This document shows, piece after piece, positions 14,321 through 21,787 of a stretch of 45,590 nt of DNA (the first letter of the stretch is position 1; every line of letters starts with the position of its first letter). Where the stretch lies: contig JAIQES010000036.1 in assembly GCA_020073705.1 (NCBI GenBank), forward strand, positions 1 to 45,590. Reading direction: 5' to 3'. Both the position numbers and the translations under genes were made by a program. The notes beneath the pieces were generated by a model, which saw only the letters and a program-made list of their open reading frames with translations, made no database searches and was not told the DNA's origin. This stretch comes from Terriglobia bacterium (GTDB taxonomy: Bacteria > Acidobacteriota > Terriglobia > Acidiferrales > UBA7541).

Positions 14321-15043
14321 TCACTTTATCGCGAGAAGCCGGTCCATCTCCTCCGCTACGCGCGTCACAGCGTCGAGATATGCCGCAAAAATCCGCTCGT
14401 GGTTGAAACCTCTCGCGCTCCTTTTCCCCTCCCGAAGATCAAGCATGGTATGAAACGCTTCTGCATTGAAGCCAAGGAGCGCCGCCAGCCGGTCGGTGGC
14501 GCTACGACGCGAATCGGGCGCGGTCTCGCCAAGCGCGATGAGCGAATGGCGAAAAAGCGTTGCGAAGGTCGAGGTTGACGCGATCATCAGATCGGTCAAC
14601 TCCGAACGCCGTCCTCGTGATCGCAAGAACGCCTGGCGCAGCCGAATCACGCTTATCCGCAGCTCACGCTCGACCTGCAAGCGGTGTAGCGCCATCGGGA
14701 CGTCAAGATCGGCGAGGAAGTCCTCACCCAGTAGCATGTGATGGTGCTGTTTCATATCGAGCAGCTCAATTGCAAAAACGTCTGCGGAATGGCGCAGTTC
14801 TTCGAGCGTGAAGACGAGCGGCGCAGGGTGCCCTTTTTGCCACCACCACAGCCCGACCGGCCGAAGCTTCGCAAGCGCCTCCCCGTCGAGCCGACCGAGC
14901 AGGCATAAGGTGTTCAGATCCGAGTGCTCCTCGTGAAACTCATGGTCGGCGGCAGAACCATATAACACAACCGCGCTCAGGTTCGTTGCCGCGGCCTCCC
15001 TTAGACGTTTCACAAGTTCGTTCAGCTCTTTCTCTTTGTGCAT
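14321..15043 (-). CDS. Nucleotidyltransferase-domain protein (MNT-like)
   Basis: This 240-residue protein starts with a helix and then VVLYGSAADHEFHEEHSDLN, which matches the GS-x10-12-D pattern of the polymerase-beta nucleotidyltransferase superfamily (here G-S then D-L-N). The rest, about residues 90-240, is helical and looks like the substrate-binding half seen in kanamycin nucleotidyltransferase or HI0074-type proteins. The second acidic residue of the catalytic D-x-D pair is replaced (DLN rather than DxD), so activity is uncertain. The ATG at 15043 lies 17 nt after the TPM stop, with GGAG upstream. It sits between lemA and the TPM gene, so it is probably in one transcript with them. Confidence 0.7.
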   Translation of the reverse strand: MHKEKELNELVKRLREAAATNLSAVVLYGSAADHEFHEEHSDLNTLCLLGRLDGEALAKLRPVGLWWWQKGHPAPLVFTLEELRHSADVFAIELLDMKQHHHMLLGEDFLADLDVPMALHRLQVERELRISVIRLRQAFLRSRGRRSELTDLMIASTSTFATLFRHSLIALGETAPDSRRSATDRLAALLGFNAEAFHTMLDLREGKRSARGFNHERIFAAYLDAVTRVAEEMDRLLAIK

Positions 15044-15060
15044 TTCCGTTTCCACTCCGA

Positions 15061-15879
15061 TCACCAGCTTCCACCTGCTCCTCCGCCGCCGGATGATCCA
15101 CCGCCAAATCCTCCAAATCCACCGCCTCCCCAGCTCCCCCCGCCGGAACCCCCACCCCAACCACCCATCGGCCCCAACCACCATCCACCGCGATAACCCT
15201 TGCCACGACGATACCGCGACCACCCCATAAGCGCGAGCAGGTACGCCAACAGCCGCCAACCTCCAAAAAACGCAAGCACGATCAGCCATTCGAATAATGC
15301 CGGGGGTAAAGATGGCTGCTCGAATTTCGGGGGCGACAAAGATCGCGCACCTTGGCTCAACGTGACGCCGCGGTCCCGCGCAATGACGTCCGCGACCTCC
15401 GACGTCATCTGCAAGAGAGCCGCGCCGTATTGGCTCTGCTTGAGCAGCGGCGCCATTTCACGGCCGAATCCCCCCACTTTGCCGTCAGGGAGAATCGGCT
15501 CGAGTCCATAGCCGACCTCGGTCCAATATTTCCGGTCGTCCACGGCAAGCAGAATCATTACGCCGCGGTCCTTGCCCTTCGGGCCGACCCCCCATTTCCC
15601 GAATAGGCGGTTGGCAAAATCTTGCGCCGTGTCGCCGTCGAGCGAATGAATCGTCACGACGGCGATCTGTGCGTCGGCACTCCGATCCAGCTCCTCACAA
15701 AGCGCCGTCAACTTCTGGCGTGAGTCGGCGTCCAAGACGCCGGCAAAGTCATTCACGTATCCTTGTGGTGAAAGTTGGTCGATCTTTTCTGCACGAACCG
15801 CTAACCCGGGAGAAATCACGGGCAATACAAGAAGGACGAGAAGTGATGCGGAAAATGCCCAATACCGGCCACGCATCAT
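15061..15879 (-). CDS. TPM-domain membrane protein (YgcG/DUF477 family)
   Basis: This protein of about 272 residues has an N-terminal signal peptide or anchor, a TPM domain (about residues 35-165) and a hydrophobic segment near residue 200. Its tail is Gly/Ser/Trp-rich and ends GGGGAGGSW. The family motif is seen in YVNDFAGVLDADSRQKLTAL, DAQIAVVTIHSLDG, WGVGPKGKDRGVMILLAVDD and YWTEVGYGLEPILPDG. Such proteins are envelope-located; a plant homologue has phosphatase activity, but the bacterial function is unclear. The Gly-rich tail is usual in the family. The ATG pair at 15879 is chosen because the signal peptide follows at once; the frame stays open to 16095. Confidence 0.88.
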   Translation of the reverse strand: MMRGRYWAFSASLLVLLVLPVISPGLAVRAEKIDQLSPQGYVNDFAGVLDADSRQKLTALCEELDRSADAQIAVVTIHSLDGDTAQDFANRLFGKWGVGPKGKDRGVMILLAVDDRKYWTEVGYGLEPILPDGKVGGFGREMAPLLKQSQYGAALLQMTSEVADVIARDRGVTLSQGARSLSPPKFEQPSLPPALFEWLIVLAFFGGWRLLAYLLALMGWSRYRRGKGYRGGWWLGPMGGWGGGSGGGSWGGGGFGGFGGGSSGGGGAGGSW

Positions 15880-16240
15880 TTGACAAATCTTCACGAGTCC
15901 ACCTGTTGGCTCGAAAGCCGGCGGCCATCTTCCGATGAAAACGTGCTGTTGGCGCTGTGACCCATTACCGTTTCGATCTCCTGAATCCCGTGCCACCGCC
16001 AGATAGAATATCTGTAAGATGACAGAATATGCCAAAACAATTACGACCATCTTGAGAAGTTCTATAAAAGCGGCCAACGAACTCATCCGGGACAAATGCG
16101 AGCGAAGAGATCCGAACCTGAGAATTGGGAATTAGGATAGGACCAGCCTATTTCTCCTGCGATTTATCCTTTCTATTTTGTTGACGAGAGATCACCTCAG
16201 GACGTATATCCTTACAAGTTCATATTGGGGGGGGGCTTCC
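15880..16240. other. Divergent intergenic region (TPM operon / molybdenum hydroxylase operon)
   Basis: This region of about 360 nt separates two divergent operons. A candidate plus-strand promoter lies at 16181-16210. An open minus-strand frame continues through part of it (to 16095) with one hydrophobic stretch, but without a ribosome binding site or family match, so I do not call it coding. Confidence 0.5.
16181..16210 (+). promoter_or_regulatory. Candidate sigma70-type promoter of the molybdenum hydroxylase operon
   Basis: TTGACG (16181-16186) and TATATC (16205-16210) are separated by 18 nt, about 31 nt upstream of the ATG at 16241. Its position argues against the longer open frame that begins at 16178. 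Confidence 0.4.
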
Positions 16241-16876
16241 ATGTCAGACAATGAATTAGCCGACCCTAGGATCTCGGCTGAAAAGAGTGTCTCAAGACGG
16301 AATTTCATCAAGATTGTCATTGCCTCAGGCGCGGTGTCCTCGACGAGCTATCTGTTCCGCGTCTCCATTCCATTGGCCCAGGCATCAGCTCCCGGCGCGG
16401 TCGAGCGCCTTATTACGCTGACCGTCAACGGTCAGCAGCGGCGAGTCGACGTCATGAAGCAAGAGACGTTGGCGATGACACTCCGATACAAGTTGGGCCT
16501 CACCGGCACGAAGATCGGGTGTGACCGCGCCGAATGCGGCGCCTGCACCGTGCTCATTGACGATGTCCCCCACTACTCGTGCTCGATGCTCACACACACG
16601 GTGCGGGGCAAAAAGATCGTGACGATTGAAGGGCTGGCCGGCGCCGATGGCAAGCTGCACCCGGTGCAGCAGGGCGTCATCGACGAGCAGGGATTCCAGT
16701 GCGCGTTCTGCATGCCTGGTTTCGTGATGGCGACGGTAGGATTCCTGAAGACGAATCCGAATCCGACGCGGGCGGAGCTAGCGCAGGGCATTTCGGGCAA
16801 CCTGTGCCGGTGCCAGGACTACGATAAGATCCTCACCGCGATGATGCGCGGCGCAGAGAATATGAGGAAGGCGTGA
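16241..16876 (+). CDS. Tat-signal [2Fe-2S] subunit of a molybdenum hydroxylase (xanthine dehydrogenase family)
   Basis: This 211-residue iron-sulfur subunit carries electrons from the molybdenum site to the FAD subunit. A twin-arginine signal is visible: SRRNFIK at residues 18-24 followed by a hydrophobic stretch, so the assembled complex is probably exported folded. The plant-type [2Fe-2S] cluster ligands are C94, C99, C102 and C114. The second helical [2Fe-2S] domain has C154, C157, C189 and C191 (CAFC and CRC). The ATG at 16241 follows a run of nine G residues and a plausible promoter. It is first in an operon with the large, FAD and cytochrome b subunits, with 3 nt to the next gene. Confidence 0.92.
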   Translation: MSDNELADPRISAEKSVSRRNFIKIVIASGAVSSTSYLFRVSIPLAQASAPGAVERLITLTVNGQQRRVDVMKQETLAMTLRYKLGLTGTKIGCDRAECGACTVLIDDVPHYSCSMLTHTVRGKKIVTIEGLAGADGKLHPVQQGVIDEQGFQCAFCMPGFVMATVGFLKTNPNPTRAELAQGISGNLCRCQDYDKILTAMMRGAENMRKA

Positions 16877-16879
16877 CCC

Positions 16880-19393
16880 ATGCCTACTAACGTGACCGCA
16901 ACCAATCACAAGCTGATCGGCAAGAACTACACGACTCCCGATCTCTACGCGAAGGTGACGGGGAGGGCAAAATACGCCGAGGACTTTCGGGCGGATGGCA
17001 TGCTGTTTTGTAAGCTGCTGCTCAGCCCGTTCCCACACGCTCGCGTCAAGCACATCGATACGCGCGCGGCGCTCGCGATGCCAGGGGTCAAGGCGATTCT
17101 CACCATGGACGATCTCCCCGCCTTGACCGATTGGATCACCGATAACGGCACCGTGATGCTGGCAGACAAGAAGGAAGAACGCGGACTTGCGATGGAGCCG
17201 TTGTACCAAGGCGAGCCGATTCTCGCCGTGGCCGCGGTCGACGAACTCACTGCCGCTGAGGCGATTGAAAAAATTCGCATCGATTTCGAGCCGCTGCCGT
17301 TTGTCGTCGATCCGCTGGTAAGCTTGCGGCCTGGCGGGCCAAATGCCAGAACTGAGGGCAACGTCTCGGTGCGGCCCGCACCACCTCCGAACGTGCCGGG
17401 CCGCCCGGTAACTGTGGCGCCGCCCGAGGTCCGGGAACTTAAGTGGACCGAGGCGGACTTCGCCGAGGCCAAACAGGGTCGACTGCCAATGGGCAAAGCG
17501 ACCGACGAATGGACGTTCGGCGATCTCGACGCGGGTTTCAGGAACGCCGCGCTCGTGCTTGACGAAACCTTCGTCACACCGAACACGAGCCACCAGTGCC
17601 TTGAGCCTCGTACCGCGATGGCGTACTGGCAGAACGGCAAGGTCTATGTTTACACGACCACGCAGAGCACCGCGCAAAGCGTCCCCAACATTGCGCGGTG
17701 GTTGGAGATCGAGCCCAGCAATATTGTTTTCATCAGCGAATACACGGGTGGCGGGTTCGGGAGTAGGGGAACGGCCGGCATCGCGCTGATTATCCCCGCT
17801 CTGCTTTCGAAGAAGGCCCATGCTCCGGTCATGATGCGCATTAGCCGCGAAGAGGAACAGTACATCGGTCGCGCGCGCCCCGGTTTTCAGGGACGAATGA
17901 AAGTTGGCTTCTCGAAGGAAGGCCGGATCCTGGCCCTGGATATGTTTGTTATCTGCGACAACGGACCGTACGGCCAGGTGTCCGATGCCCCTTCGTCGGG
18001 CCGCACCGTCTCGCTGCTGTACCAGCCGCTGGCGATGCGCTGGCGGGGAGTGACGGTCCTGACGAATACGCCGCCACGCACTTACCAAAGGTCGCCGGGA
18101 GGCCTGCAGGCGATCATGCTCATGGAGCCTGTCCTCGCGAAAGCCGCGCGCAAGCTCGCGATCGATCAGGTAGCCATCCGGCGCCTCAACGCCCCGGAGG
18201 GCAAGGCGGAATTCGGGGCAGGAGCTGTGGGGAAGCGAGCGCATGCCACGAGTGCATTCATCAAGGAAGCGCTCGACCGCGGCGCAGAGCAGTTCAAGTG
18301 GAATGAGAGGAAGGCGCGCAGCGGCAAGCGAGTCGGCTCGAAGGTGCGCGGCATCGGCGTGTCGATGAGTTGTTATTCCGGCGGATCCATCGGGTACGAT
18401 GGGCTTTTTGTCATCAAACCCGATGGCCGTCTATACATCCAGTCCGGAATCGGCAATCTCGGCACGGAGTCAGTGTTCGACGTCCACCGCGTGGTGGCTG
18501 AGGTTCTCGGCGTTCCCTGGGAAAAGTGCGAAATCACCTGGGGTAACACGTCGAAGAACCTGCCGTGGAGCTGCACGTCGACGGGCAGCAAGACCATCCA
18601 TACAATGACGCGCGCGGCGCATGCGGCGGCCATGGACGCCAAGAGGAAACTGCAGGAGATTGCAGCAAAGGATCTTGGCGGCAAGCCCGAGGATTACGAG
18701 GTCGCCAACGAACGCGTCTTCCGGAAAGGCGGGGGGCCCGGTATGAGCTTGGCGGACGCCGCTCGGCGCGCGGTCCGGCTCGGAGGCATATACGACGGCC
18801 ACGAACTGCCCAAGGACATCAACAAAATGACGGTAGCATCGGCCACCGCGCTGGCGGGCCAGGGCCTGCTTGCTGTTGCGCGGGACAACTACCCGTGCGA
18901 CGGTGTGACCCATTCGTACGTCGCCAGCTTTGCCGAGGTCGAAGTTGACGTCGAAACCGGCAAATATCGCATTTTGGATTTTCTCGCTTACGCCGACGCC
19001 GGCACCGTGATTCATCCGCGTATTTTTGGTGGTCAGGTTCTCGGCGGAACAATACTGGGCATAGGCCATGCCATCGGCCAGAAGTGGGTCTACGATCAGC
19101 ACTACGGCCTGCCGCTGGCCAAGCGGTTCCACCATACCAAACCGCCGACGATTCTGGACTTACCGGCCAAGTTGGAATGGGCGTCGGTGGGCATTCCGGA
19201 CCCTGAAACACCTGTGGGTGCGCGCGGCATCGGCGAGCCGCCTGTGGGCGGCGGGTGTTGCGCAATCCTGAACGCTCTCTCGGACGCCCTTGGGGACGAG
19301 ATCTTCCGGCGCGCGCCTGTAACCGCCGACGTCATCTTGGCTTCGCTTGAGGCGGGCCGACCAGCCCAAGACGACCTGAGGGCCAACATTTAG
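16880..19393 (+). CDS. Molybdopterin-binding large subunit of a molybdenum hydroxylase
   Basis: This 837-residue catalytic subunit of the xanthine dehydrogenase / aldehyde oxidase superfamily would hydroxylate an aldehyde or N-heterocycle using water. The N-terminal a/b hammerhead domain starts near YAKVTGRAKYAEDF. Cofactor-binding segments include TGGGFGSRG and CTSTGSKT. The catalytic base is expected at about E786 in GARGIGEPPVGGG, which is conserved. A Pro-rich insert at about 160-200 (RPAPPPNVPGRPVTVAPP) lengthens it compared with typical members of 750-780 residues. It has no signal of its own and would ride out with the Tat-tagged small subunit. The exact substrate cannot be read from sequence; carbon monoxide dehydrogenase is unlikely without the CoxL active-site loop. 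Confidence 0.92.
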   Translation: MPTNVTATNHKLIGKNYTTPDLYAKVTGRAKYAEDFRADGMLFCKLLLSPFPHARVKHIDTRAALAMPGVKAILTMDDLPALTDWITDNGTVMLADKKEERGLAMEPLYQGEPILAVAAVDELTAAEAIEKIRIDFEPLPFVVDPLVSLRPGGPNARTEGNVSVRPAPPPNVPGRPVTVAPPEVRELKWTEADFAEAKQGRLPMGKATDEWTFGDLDAGFRNAALVLDETFVTPNTSHQCLEPRTAMAYWQNGKVYVYTTTQSTAQSVPNIARWLEIEPSNIVFISEYTGGGFGSRGTAGIALIIPALLSKKAHAPVMMRISREEEQYIGRARPGFQGRMKVGFSKEGRILALDMFVICDNGPYGQVSDAPSSGRTVSLLYQPLAMRWRGVTVLTNTPPRTYQRSPGGLQAIMLMEPVLAKAARKLAIDQVAIRRLNAPEGKAEFGAGAVGKRAHATSAFIKEALDRGAEQFKWNERKARSGKRVGSKVRGIGVSMSCYSGGSIGYDGLFVIKPDGRLYIQSGIGNLGTESVFDVHRVVAEVLGVPWEKCEITWGNTSKNLPWSCTSTGSKTIHTMTRAAHAAAMDAKRKLQEIAAKDLGGKPEDYEVANERVFRKGGGPGMSLADAARRAVRLGGIYDGHELPKDINKMTVASATALAGQGLLAVARDNYPCDGVTHSYVASFAEVEVDVETGKYRILDFLAYADAGTVIHPRIFGGQVLGGTILGIGHAIGQKWVYDQHYGLPLAKRFHHTKPPTILDLPAKLEWASVGIPDPETPVGARGIGEPPVGGGCCAILNALSDALGDEIFRRAPVTADVILASLEAGRPAQDDLRANI

Positions 19394-19483
19394 CGGCCAG
19401 TAGCCGCGCGAGCGTAACGAAGCGGAGTCTACGAACGGCACGGCAATACACGGCCAGTTAGTAAGAGATGAGGAGAACGGAAT

Positions 19484-20497
19484 ATGGCTGTCATTCGCGA
19501 CGTAATACCAACGTTCGAACTCTTTCAGCCTGTGACGATTGAAGACGCCCTGGCGTTGCTGGCTCGGCACGGTGCGGAGGCCTGGGTGCTGGCCGGCGGG
19601 CTCGACAGCTTCGACTGGTTCGCTGATCGGATCAAGCGACCCGCTGCGGTCATCGATCTGAGCCAGATCAAAGAGCTGAGCGAGGTGCGCTCTGTCGGTG
19701 ACGGGCTTGAGATTGGTGCGATGACGACCTTGACCGAAGTGGTGCGGCATCCGATCGTGCGGGAGAAGTACGGGCTCCTGCCGGAGGCCGCCGAGGCGGT
19801 TGCGTCTCCGCAGATCCGCAACCAAGGGACGATTGGCGGCAACGTGTCCCAGGATGCACGCTGTTGGTATTATCGCGCGGGCTGGCCATGCTACCGTGCC
19901 GGCGGCAACATCTGCTACGCAGATACGCCGACGGGCATGAACCGCGAGCACGCCATACTCGACGCGGATCGTTGTGTTGCCGTCAACCCCTCAGACACGG
20001 CGCCTGCCCTGATTGTCCTCGATGCGAAAATGGTCATTCGCACGCCTCGCGGTGAGCGAGTAGTCAATGCCGAGGATTATTTTATCGGTCCTGGAACCGA
20101 TATTACCCGCATGACGATCTTACGGCCTGGTGATCTCCTCACTGCCATTCGTATCCCGTCCACTTGGGCCGGTGCACAATTCTATTTCGAGAAAGTTCGC
20201 GACCGAAATGTCTGGGATTTCGCGCTGGTTAACGTGGCGTCAGCGATGGTGACTTCGGGGGGCAAGATCGAGCGATTGCGGCTGGCAATGAACGGCGTGG
20301 CCGCTCATCCGCTTCGGTTGAAGACGGTCGAGACCGCCGTGCTCGGTAAACCGCGGAACGAGGAAACGGCGGAGTTCGCCGGGAAACTCGCTATCCAAGG
20401 AGCCAAACCTTTGCAGTCTAACGGTTATAAGGTGCCGTTGATGAGAAATCTCGTGAAGCGTGCGATCCGAGGAGTGGTCGGGGAGGAGGCAGCTTGA
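19484..20497 (+). CDS. FAD-binding subunit of a molybdenum hydroxylase, with four extra cysteines
   Basis: This 337-residue protein of the CoxM/PaoB type passes electrons from the Fe-S subunit. The FAD-binding region is seen in WVLAGGLDSFDWF and NQGTIGGNVSQ. After that motif comes a loop with C127, C136, C144 and C164 (CWYYRAGWPC, GGNICYA, DADRC). Its position matches the [4Fe-4S]-binding loops known in PaoB and 4-hydroxybenzoyl-CoA reductase FAD subunits, so an extra cluster is inferred. The C-terminal domain starts near residue 220. The ATG has GGAG upstream. A 90-nt gap separates it from the large subunit gene, and its stop overlaps the start of the next gene. Confidence 0.9.
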   Translation: MAVIRDVIPTFELFQPVTIEDALALLARHGAEAWVLAGGLDSFDWFADRIKRPAAVIDLSQIKELSEVRSVGDGLEIGAMTTLTEVVRHPIVREKYGLLPEAAEAVASPQIRNQGTIGGNVSQDARCWYYRAGWPCYRAGGNICYADTPTGMNREHAILDADRCVAVNPSDTAPALIVLDAKMVIRTPRGERVVNAEDYFIGPGTDITRMTILRPGDLLTAIRIPSTWAGAQFYFEKVRDRNVWDFALVNVASAMVTSGGKIERLRLAMNGVAAHPLRLKTVETAVLGKPRNEETAEFAGKLAIQGAKPLQSNGYKVPLMRNLVKRAIRGVVGEEAA

Positions 20498-21360
20498 ACT
20501 TCATTCAGTGGGCACTGAATCCGTGGGGTGAGCGGATCCCGATTCATGTCTCTTGGGATCTGCTATGGGCGTCAGCGATTGCGGGAGTGCTGTTCTTAAT
20601 TGTCCACGCAATTTATGTTGGATACTGGGCGAAACCCGTTGCCGAATCGCAGAATGACTCAAAGCTAGCCGCAGCCGCTGCACGAGTCCCTGAGCGCGTC
20701 GCCAGGCATTCGTTTGGGGCGAGAACCTTTCATTGGGTGATGGCGGCTTCCATGTTCGTGCTGCTCTTCACCGCGTTTCTTCCGAAGGTGGGCGTCAGAT
20801 TTTCGTGGGTGACGATTCACTGGGTCGCGGGCATCGTCCTTACGATCTCGGTTCTGTACCACATCATCCACGCCACATTCTGGCTGGATTTCTGGTCGAT
20901 CTGGCCGGACAAGCAGGACGTCGCAGACGCGTCGAGGAGATTCCAGCGGGCCTTGGGAAGAGCGACTCCCCCACTGAAGAAATTTGGTAAGTATCCGCTG
21001 GAGAACAAGCTCTTTCACCTGAGCGTTCTATTCGCGGGTCTTGCGGTGATTTTCACCGGCCTCTTTATGATGTTTCGAGTGCGCACCCCCTTCTTCACGC
21101 GCAATCCTTATCTTTTTGGCGACATGACGTGGGGCGTGATGTATGTATTGCATGGTCTGGCGGGGGTTGGATTTGTCGCGCTCATTACGGCGCACATTTA
21201 CCTCGCGGTCAGGCCAGAGAAGTTTTTTCTCACCAAGTCGATGATCTTTGGTTGGATCAGTCGTGGAAAGTACCTGGAACACCACGATCCAGAGCGATGG
21301 CCCGTCGACGAGGGAGTTCCCGAGGCGGGGCAGTCGAAGGCGCCGGAAGTGGTGATCTGA
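20494..21360 (+). CDS. Cytochrome b membrane subunit (formate dehydrogenase gamma / b561-like)
   Basis: This 288-residue protein has about five membrane helices, near residues 20-45, 80-100, 108-132, 172-195 and 215-240. Likely haem-ligand histidines sit in helices: TFHWVMA, IHWVAGI, LYHIIHA, LFHLSV, LHGLAG and TAHIYLA. Family members pass electrons between a periplasmic enzyme and the quinone pool. The TTG start is supported by GGGGAGGAGG 4 nt upstream and by overlap with the stop of the FAD subunit (TTGA). Its place in the operon suggests that it anchors the exported molybdenum hydroxylase and connects it to quinone. The haem count cannot be fixed by eye. Confidence 0.88.
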   Translation: MNFIQWALNPWGERIPIHVSWDLLWASAIAGVLFLIVHAIYVGYWAKPVAESQNDSKLAAAAARVPERVARHSFGARTFHWVMAASMFVLLFTAFLPKVGVRFSWVTIHWVAGIVLTISVLYHIIHATFWLDFWSIWPDKQDVADASRRFQRALGRATPPLKKFGKYPLENKLFHLSVLFAGLAVIFTGLFMMFRVRTPFFTRNPYLFGDMTWGVMYVLHGLAGVGFVALITAHIYLAVRPEKFFLTKSMIFGWISRGKYLEHHDPERWPVDEGVPEAGQSKAPEVVI

Positions 21361-21364
21361 GACG

Positions 21365-21787
21365 ATGCGCGACGAAATAAGCGCCCGTTGCACCGCCATC
21401 GAGGAATGCTACGAGTTCATGCTGGCGTACGCCGGCCAGGGACTCGCTGGGGACGAGGGCAGCCAGTCAAGTGGGCAGGTGCGCGACTACCTGAATCGCG
21501 CCGTCGAGGCACTTTCAGGGCTGTCAGAGGCTTATGCGATGGCGGTGAAACAAGAAAACCTGCAGTTGGCCGAACGCTACCACGCGTTTCTCGCTGTCCT
21601 GGAGAGTGACGCTCGTGACTCTCTCGCCGCCATCCAGCTTGTACTTGCCCAGATCACCCTCAGCTCTCAGTTGATCGATAATCTGAATGCTTCGATCCAT
21701 CTCCGCGCACTGCTCACAGACTTGTTTCTCGTCGACGAGATCTTGAGGCCACAACGAATGCCGGCTAAACCGGTGAACACGGGCTAG
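21365..21787 (+). CDS. Hypothetical helical protein, last gene of the molybdenum hydroxylase operon
   Basis: This is a 140-residue soluble protein, predicted almost entirely helical, with many Glu, Ala, Leu and Gln residues (AVEALSGLSEAYAMAV, LAERYHAFLAVLESDA). It has no signal peptide and only weak hydrophobic patches. I recognise no family. It starts 4 nt after the cytochrome b gene, so it is almost certainly co-transcribed with it. By position it could be an assembly or regulatory helper, but nothing in the sequence proves this. A simple four-helix arrangement is the most that can be said. Confidence 0.72.
   Translation: MRDEISARCTAIEECYEFMLAYAGQGLAGDEGSQSSGQVRDYLNRAVEALSGLSEAYAMAVKQENLQLAERYHAFLAVLESDARDSLAAIQLVLAQITLSSQLIDNLNASIHLRALLTDLFLVDEILRPQRMPAKPVNTG

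Follow-up and report, generated by a model that had tools for sequence, protein, structure and literature searches.

A putative periplasmic molybdenum enzyme of the xanthine oxidase family encoded with an FdnI-type cytochrome b in Acidobacteriota

The electron acceptor of PaoABC, the molybdenum-containing periplasmic aldehyde oxidoreductase of Escherichia coli, was reported to be unidentified in 2014 (PMC3958847). The locus described here raises the question of whether an exported enzyme related to PaoABC may be wired to quinone by a cytochrome b encoded beside it. A preliminary description of this DNA had proposed such an arrangement, that of an exported molybdenum hydroxylase with a cytochrome b partner, and we followed it up by computational analysis.

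Layout of the cassette

The window, by which we mean the whole stretch of 45,590 nucleotides analysed, carries the five-gene set of the preliminary description; all five open reading frames were confirmed to be adjacent, head to tail, on the + strand.

16241..16876, + strand: predicted Tat-signalled 2x[2Fe-2S] subunit, 211 aa; Fer2 and Fer2_2 (Pfam); PaoA-like
16292..16312, + strand: twin-arginine motif SRRNFIK, residues 18-24 of the Fe-S subunit
16880..19393, + strand: predicted molybdenum cofactor-binding catalytic subunit, 837 aa; Ald_Xan_dh_C, MoCoBD_1 and MoCoBD_2 (Pfam)
19235..19237, + strand: predicted catalytic glutamate E786 (GxGEPPVG) of the molybdenum subunit; E in 59/59 sequences
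19484..20497, + strand: predicted FAD subunit, 337 aa; FAD_binding_5 (1.5e-48) and CO_deh_flav_C (Pfam)
19862..19975, + strand: putative four-Cys [4Fe-4S] motif of the FAD subunit (C127, C136, C144, C164); each Cys in 70/70 sequences
20494..21360, + strand: predicted five-helix cytochrome b, 288 aa; TTG start; Ni_hydr_CYTB PF01292 (4.6e-21)
21365..21787, + strand: predicted soluble helical-bundle protein, 140 aa; no Pfam family

Along the cassette the genes are spaced by 3 bases, 90 bases, a 4-base overlap and 4 bases. The overlap, TTGA at 20494-20497, is the start/stop overlap of the cytochrome b and FAD genes that had been noted previously. The start of the set had been placed near 16181, which is about 60 bases too early: the Fe-S frame is readable from a TTG at 16178, but the genes of relatives start at the position of the ATG at 16241, and this ATG was therefore taken as the start. 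The upstream neighbours (TPM-domain and LemA-family genes) and the downstream neighbour (a glycosyl transferase family 4 gene) all lie on the opposite strand, so that the cassette forms a unit of its own. Also upstream, a 322-aa open reading frame on the - strand (14321-15289) matched no Pfam family; a short part of it, VVLYGSAADHEF, resembles a minimal nucleotidyltransferase.

Conservation and spread of the gene set

The host genome (3.79 Mb, 97% complete) contains 13 matches to the Fe-S subunit but only one such cytochrome; among named genomes it is closest to MAGs of Terriglobia and Candidatus Acidiferrales (Acidobacteriota). Cytochrome matches were found in 16 of 61 genomes (its own and related ones), with a clear split between 12 strong matches, the host included, and 4 weak ones; in all 11 strong-match relatives the neighbouring genes and their order were identical within the limits of the contigs. 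When about 85,000 species genomes were scanned with the cytochrome, 401 relatives were obtained among named genomes, and the best 80 of these, a set that overlaps with the 11 relatives, were analysed. The small gene followed the cytochrome gene in 80/80 of these loci, the FAD gene preceded it in 79/80, and the complete five-gene cassette was present in 62. Of the 18 incomplete loci, 17 have a contig end at or close to their start; in the remaining one (L071) only the last part of a FAD gene is left, after unrelated sequence. The overlap of the FAD and cytochrome genes was kept in 74 of 79 relatives, and the cytochrome and small genes overlapped in 44 of 77. A separate search detected the small protein in 25 of 396 genomes of the phylum, and the cytochrome and FAD genes adjoined in each of the 10 loci examined. 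The distribution of the cassette is patchy, and the cytochrome and small genes always occur together where they are found. Because the gene order is conserved in the best 80 named loci, chance neighbourhood is excluded. The preliminary description had considered that the cytochrome b gene might not be conserved beside the enzyme; in the 11 relatives and the best 80 named loci it was, and this conservation, together with that of the Tat motif described below, supports the reading of the gene set as one for an exported molybdenum hydroxylase with a cytochrome b partner.

Judged from the best 80 of the 401 matches, the cassette is so far essentially found in Acidobacteriota, and many of its carriers are uncultured members from soil and peat. 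A search of a plasmid collection gave no match for the cytochrome or the small protein, and matched the molybdenum subunit at only about 29% identity. In a tree of FAD subunits, the window fell in a group (five rows, support 100/98) with MAGs of the Acidiferrales and Terriglobia. The acidobacterial group of the tree also includes the cassette of a MAG labelled Deltaproteobacteria (L087, PMOH01000006.1), which points to either a mislabelled MAG or transfer. One genome (G054), the same as that of locus L033, encodes a paralogous Tat-signalled FeS-Mo-FAD trimer (L141:7056-11194, G054:C6; 72/54/71% identity) without adjoining cytochrome b or small genes. This trimer sits inside the cytochrome-bearing group of the tree, with weak support and on a long branch, a position that suggests loss. 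Its lack of a cytochrome gene counts against the wiring considered here, in that an enzyme of this type may use another acceptor. Orphan molybdenum subunits were also observed in G054 (L139:7624-10143, 72%, and L140:7251-9701, 60%), with no such Fe-S or FAD gene in the stretches fetched.

One could envisage that the enzyme is a soluble, PaoABC-like periplasmic protein with a soluble acceptor of its own, and that the cytochrome b and the small protein have a separate, co-transcribed function. PaoABC indeed functions with an operon that lacks a cytochrome b: this operon, paoABCD, contained none on checking, in line with the preliminary description, and, unlike the cassette, no small helical protein either. 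The cytochrome-less trimer of L141 could be taken in the same sense. However, the cytochrome gene was always near the enzyme genes where the contig was long enough, save at the locus where the FAD gene is broken (L071), and it overlaps the FAD gene; in addition, the divergence of the cytochrome tracks that of the FAD (r 0.82) and molybdenum (r 0.77) subunits, although shared ancestry alone could give the same result. This alternative seems quite unlikely to us.

The enzyme subunits

The Tat motif SRRNFIK claimed for the Fe-S subunit was present. The pattern [ST]RRx[FLV]I was found in 58/58 Fe-S subunit sequences, window included, whereas the remaining N-terminus is variable, and TatC is encoded in the host genome. 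The same 58 sequences all have the eight [2Fe-2S] cysteines (C94, C99, C102, C114, C154, C157, C189 and C191). A constant cleavage site was absent after the Tat h-region, so that the segment may possibly serve as an uncleaved anchor. The h-region in the window is weakly hydrophobic, which might be taken to mean that the Tat-like segment is non-functional and that the complex faces the cytoplasm in the manner of aerobic CO dehydrogenase, a donor to quinone or cytochrome b; however, weak hydrophobicity is usual among Tat signals. Quinones are indeed used by the form I aerobic CO dehydrogenase, a member of this family (PMC10992861), but a cytosolic enzyme would be hard to reconcile with twin arginines and a following [FLV]I that are kept in every sequence while other N-terminal residues vary, or with the FdnI-like topology of the cytochrome (see below), which would have the docking haem face the periplasm. 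We therefore hold a cytosolic location to be very unlikely.

The Fer2/Fer2_2, FAD_binding_5/CO_deh_flav_C and Ald_Xan_dh_C/MoCoBD domains all exceeded the Pfam cut-offs. The catalytic subunits are thus members of the xanthine oxidase family, the molybdenum hydroxylases, with 4-hydroxybenzoyl-CoA reductase (4-HBCR) and E. coli PaoABC as the nearest relatives. The closest solved molybdenum chains were 1rm6_A of 4-HBCR (6.4e-60) and then PaoC (5g5h), and E786 aligns with the GEL of PaoC and the SEG of 4-HBCR. The NCBIfam equivalog cut-offs were missed for PaoA (134 vs 322 bits), PaoC (255 vs 1180 bits) and 4-HBCR (TIGR03193-03195; 154/258, 328/995 and 191/405 bits), and the best molybdenum-subunit paralogue in the host genome shared only 29% identity with the cassette subunit across the main domains. 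The substrate site differs from that of xanthine dehydrogenase (purine hydroxylase): GGGFGS[KR] is followed by I, V or G in 57/59 sequences, and the purine-binding Glu that follows GGGFGGK in the bovine enzyme (E802) is absent. At one position of the active-site loop, PaoC and 4-HBCR have Arg; 57/59 sequences have Ser there, but the window has Arg. Relative to 4-HBCR, the window encodes about 40 extra residues between the hammerhead and MoCoBD_1 domains (17339-17512), with a partly conserved KWTxxDF...GxLPxGK; this stretch is a possible docking segment. The best solved match of the FAD subunit was 5y6q_B. The four Cys of this subunit lie in an insertion whose counterpart in the alignment is the Cys-rich one of 5y6q_B, and form a putative [4Fe-4S] site, a feature additional to those in the preliminary description.

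An XdhC-type factor is encoded in the host genome. Elsewhere, mostly in Acidobacteriaceae, the genes after the cassette encode XdhC-family (13 loci), MocA-like (12) and NifU-like (7) proteins; the XdhC-family factor is closest to the aldehyde-oxidoreductase type but below its cut-off, the MocA-like nucleotidyltransferase is also below cut-off, and the NifU-like protein is of the scaffold type. Neighbours of this kind would suit a xanthine oxidase-family enzyme that contains molybdenum and Fe-S clusters. Genes for reductive pyrimidine breakdown lie near the cassette in about six Acidobacteriaceae, with PreA and dihydropyrimidinase above cut-off; for example, PreT, PreA, dihydropyrimidinase and an NCS1 permease are encoded a few kb downstream at L107:13490-20181 and L081:13420-19254. 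We did not accept these as a hint to the substrate, since they are found neither beside most loci nor in the window. By kinship with PaoABC and 5y6q, the most likely substrates would be aldehydes; N-heterocycles are possible.

The cytochrome b, the small protein and the proposed electron path

The cytochrome scored 75.8 bits with PF01292 (cut-off 30.1) and missed the formate dehydrogenase gamma equivalog cut-off (TIGR01583; 42 vs 116 bits), and a PDB sequence-profile search with it gave chance matches only. Its AlphaFold2 model (mean pLDDT 84) has five long helices of membrane length (residues 21-44, 74-99, 105-129, 169-195 and 210-239), in good agreement with the five-helix cytochrome b originally described. 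The best structural match was FdnI of formate dehydrogenase-N (1kqf_C; Foldseek 7.7e-7; VIA Z 15.4, rmsd 3.1, 198 residues), followed by E. coli superoxide oxidase (VIA Z 14.2) and the hydrogenase-1 cytochrome (Z 11.6). The match to FdnI, which has four helices, covers residues 64-283, and the first helix of the cassette cytochrome is additional. His is conserved at ten positions (18, 38, 72, 80, 109, 123, 126, 175, 220 and 234), each in 78-80 of the 80 sequences, about six more than in FdnI. A profile alignment placed H80, H220 and H234 on H18, H155 and H169 of FdnI, presumably haem-binding positions, so that His is kept at the three alignable ones. The counterpart of FdnI H57 in helix 3, a possible fourth ligand, is ambiguous: MAFFT selected H126, whereas hhalign and the helix position favoured H109. 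Lys and Arg residues number 5 in loop 1-2, 8 in loop 3-4 and 7 in the C-terminus, against 1 in the N-terminus, 2 in loop 2-3 and 3 in loop 4-5, a distribution that argues for an outside N-terminus and an inside C-terminus, as an FdnI-like core needs. With the N-terminus outside, several of the extra His would lie toward the cytoplasmic side, where they could form a further haem or quinone site.

The small protein was predicted to be a helical bundle (AlphaFold2, pLDDT 84) with a nearly invariant C-terminal SSQLIDNLNASIHLRALLTDLFL. It had no match in Pfam or NCBIfam and no significant one in PDB by sequence profile or Foldseek, consistent with the small unknown helical protein of the preliminary description. 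The structures matched by its model were generic four-helix bundles (Foldseek E of 0.1 at best, VIA Z at most 12) and were rejected as a guide to function; absence from these match lists excludes nothing. Since the protein has no signal, and no hydrophobic stretch of membrane strength, it would be cytosolic, and from its location and linkage we would guess at a dedicated chaperone, for assembly or export, as its most likely role.

The direction of electron flow was also considered. Electrons could run in reverse, from quinol through the cytochrome b and the molybdenum enzyme to a periplasmic substrate, as in an "inverted" 4-HBCR. 4-HBCR (HcrABC, 1rm6) provides the best-scoring solved molybdenum subunit and shares with the cassette the extra [4Fe-4S] motif in the FAD subunit, and cytochromes b of the NarI kind supply reductases. 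On the other hand, 5y6q and PaoABC, which are oxidases or dehydrogenases, also have the [4Fe-4S] insertion, the closest cytochrome fold, that of FdnI, is quinone-reducing, and the periplasm is not a place where CoA esters would be expected. We regard a reductase as unlikely.

We consider it probable that the cassette encodes a membrane-anchored, periplasmic respiratory dehydrogenase of the xanthine oxidase family that is wired to quinone through the FdnI-type cytochrome b. From the genes, their motifs and conserved linkage, and the predicted cytochrome fold, we infer the following course of export, complex formation and electron transfer. The Tat signal of the Fe-S subunit would carry the folded three-subunit enzyme across the inner membrane, with the molybdenum and FAD subunits hitch-hiking, and the periplasmic enzyme would dock on the five-helix cytochrome. 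Substrate would be oxidised at molybdenum, and electrons would pass through the [2Fe-2S] clusters, and probably FAD and the [4Fe-4S] cluster, to a periplasmic-side haem b, then to a cytoplasmic-side haem b and quinone. Should quinone reduction take place close to the cytoplasmic side, as it does in FdnI, the overall reaction would be electrogenic.

Each module has a known counterpart. PaoABC (YagTSR) resembles the cassette in its Tat-signalled 2x[2Fe-2S], FAD plus [4Fe-4S] and molybdenum subunits and in its XdhC-type maturation factor, but its gene order is FeS-FAD-Mo instead of FeS-Mo-FAD. 4-HBCR is cytosolic and ferredoxin-dependent, and to our knowledge has neither a Tat signal nor a cytochrome b. 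FdnI links a periplasmic molybdenum enzyme to quinone, as proposed for the cassette cytochrome, but its partner belongs to the DMSO-reductase family. Aerobic CO dehydrogenase (CoxMSL) is likewise a trimer of the xanthine oxidase family, for which we know of no Tat signal, [4Fe-4S] insertion or FdnI-type subunit. The CoxMSL trimer feeds quinone or cytochrome b (PMC10992861). In the open-access literature, outside which most subscription papers lie, we found no published description of the five-gene set, and the constant pairing of an FdnI-type cytochrome b with a Tat-exported enzyme of the xanthine oxidase family is, as predicted here, a new combination of known modules.

The cassette provides a genetically fixed acceptor candidate, a quinone-type cytochrome b, for exported enzymes of the xanthine oxidase family. 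If the proposed wiring is correct, this family would join those respiratory dehydrogenases whose modular design rests on an FdnI-type cytochrome. The cassette may matter for the use or detoxification of aldehydes or heterocycles in soil and peat Acidobacteriota, and it suggests that many soil Acidobacteria feed electrons from a substrate, perhaps aldehydes, straight into respiration.
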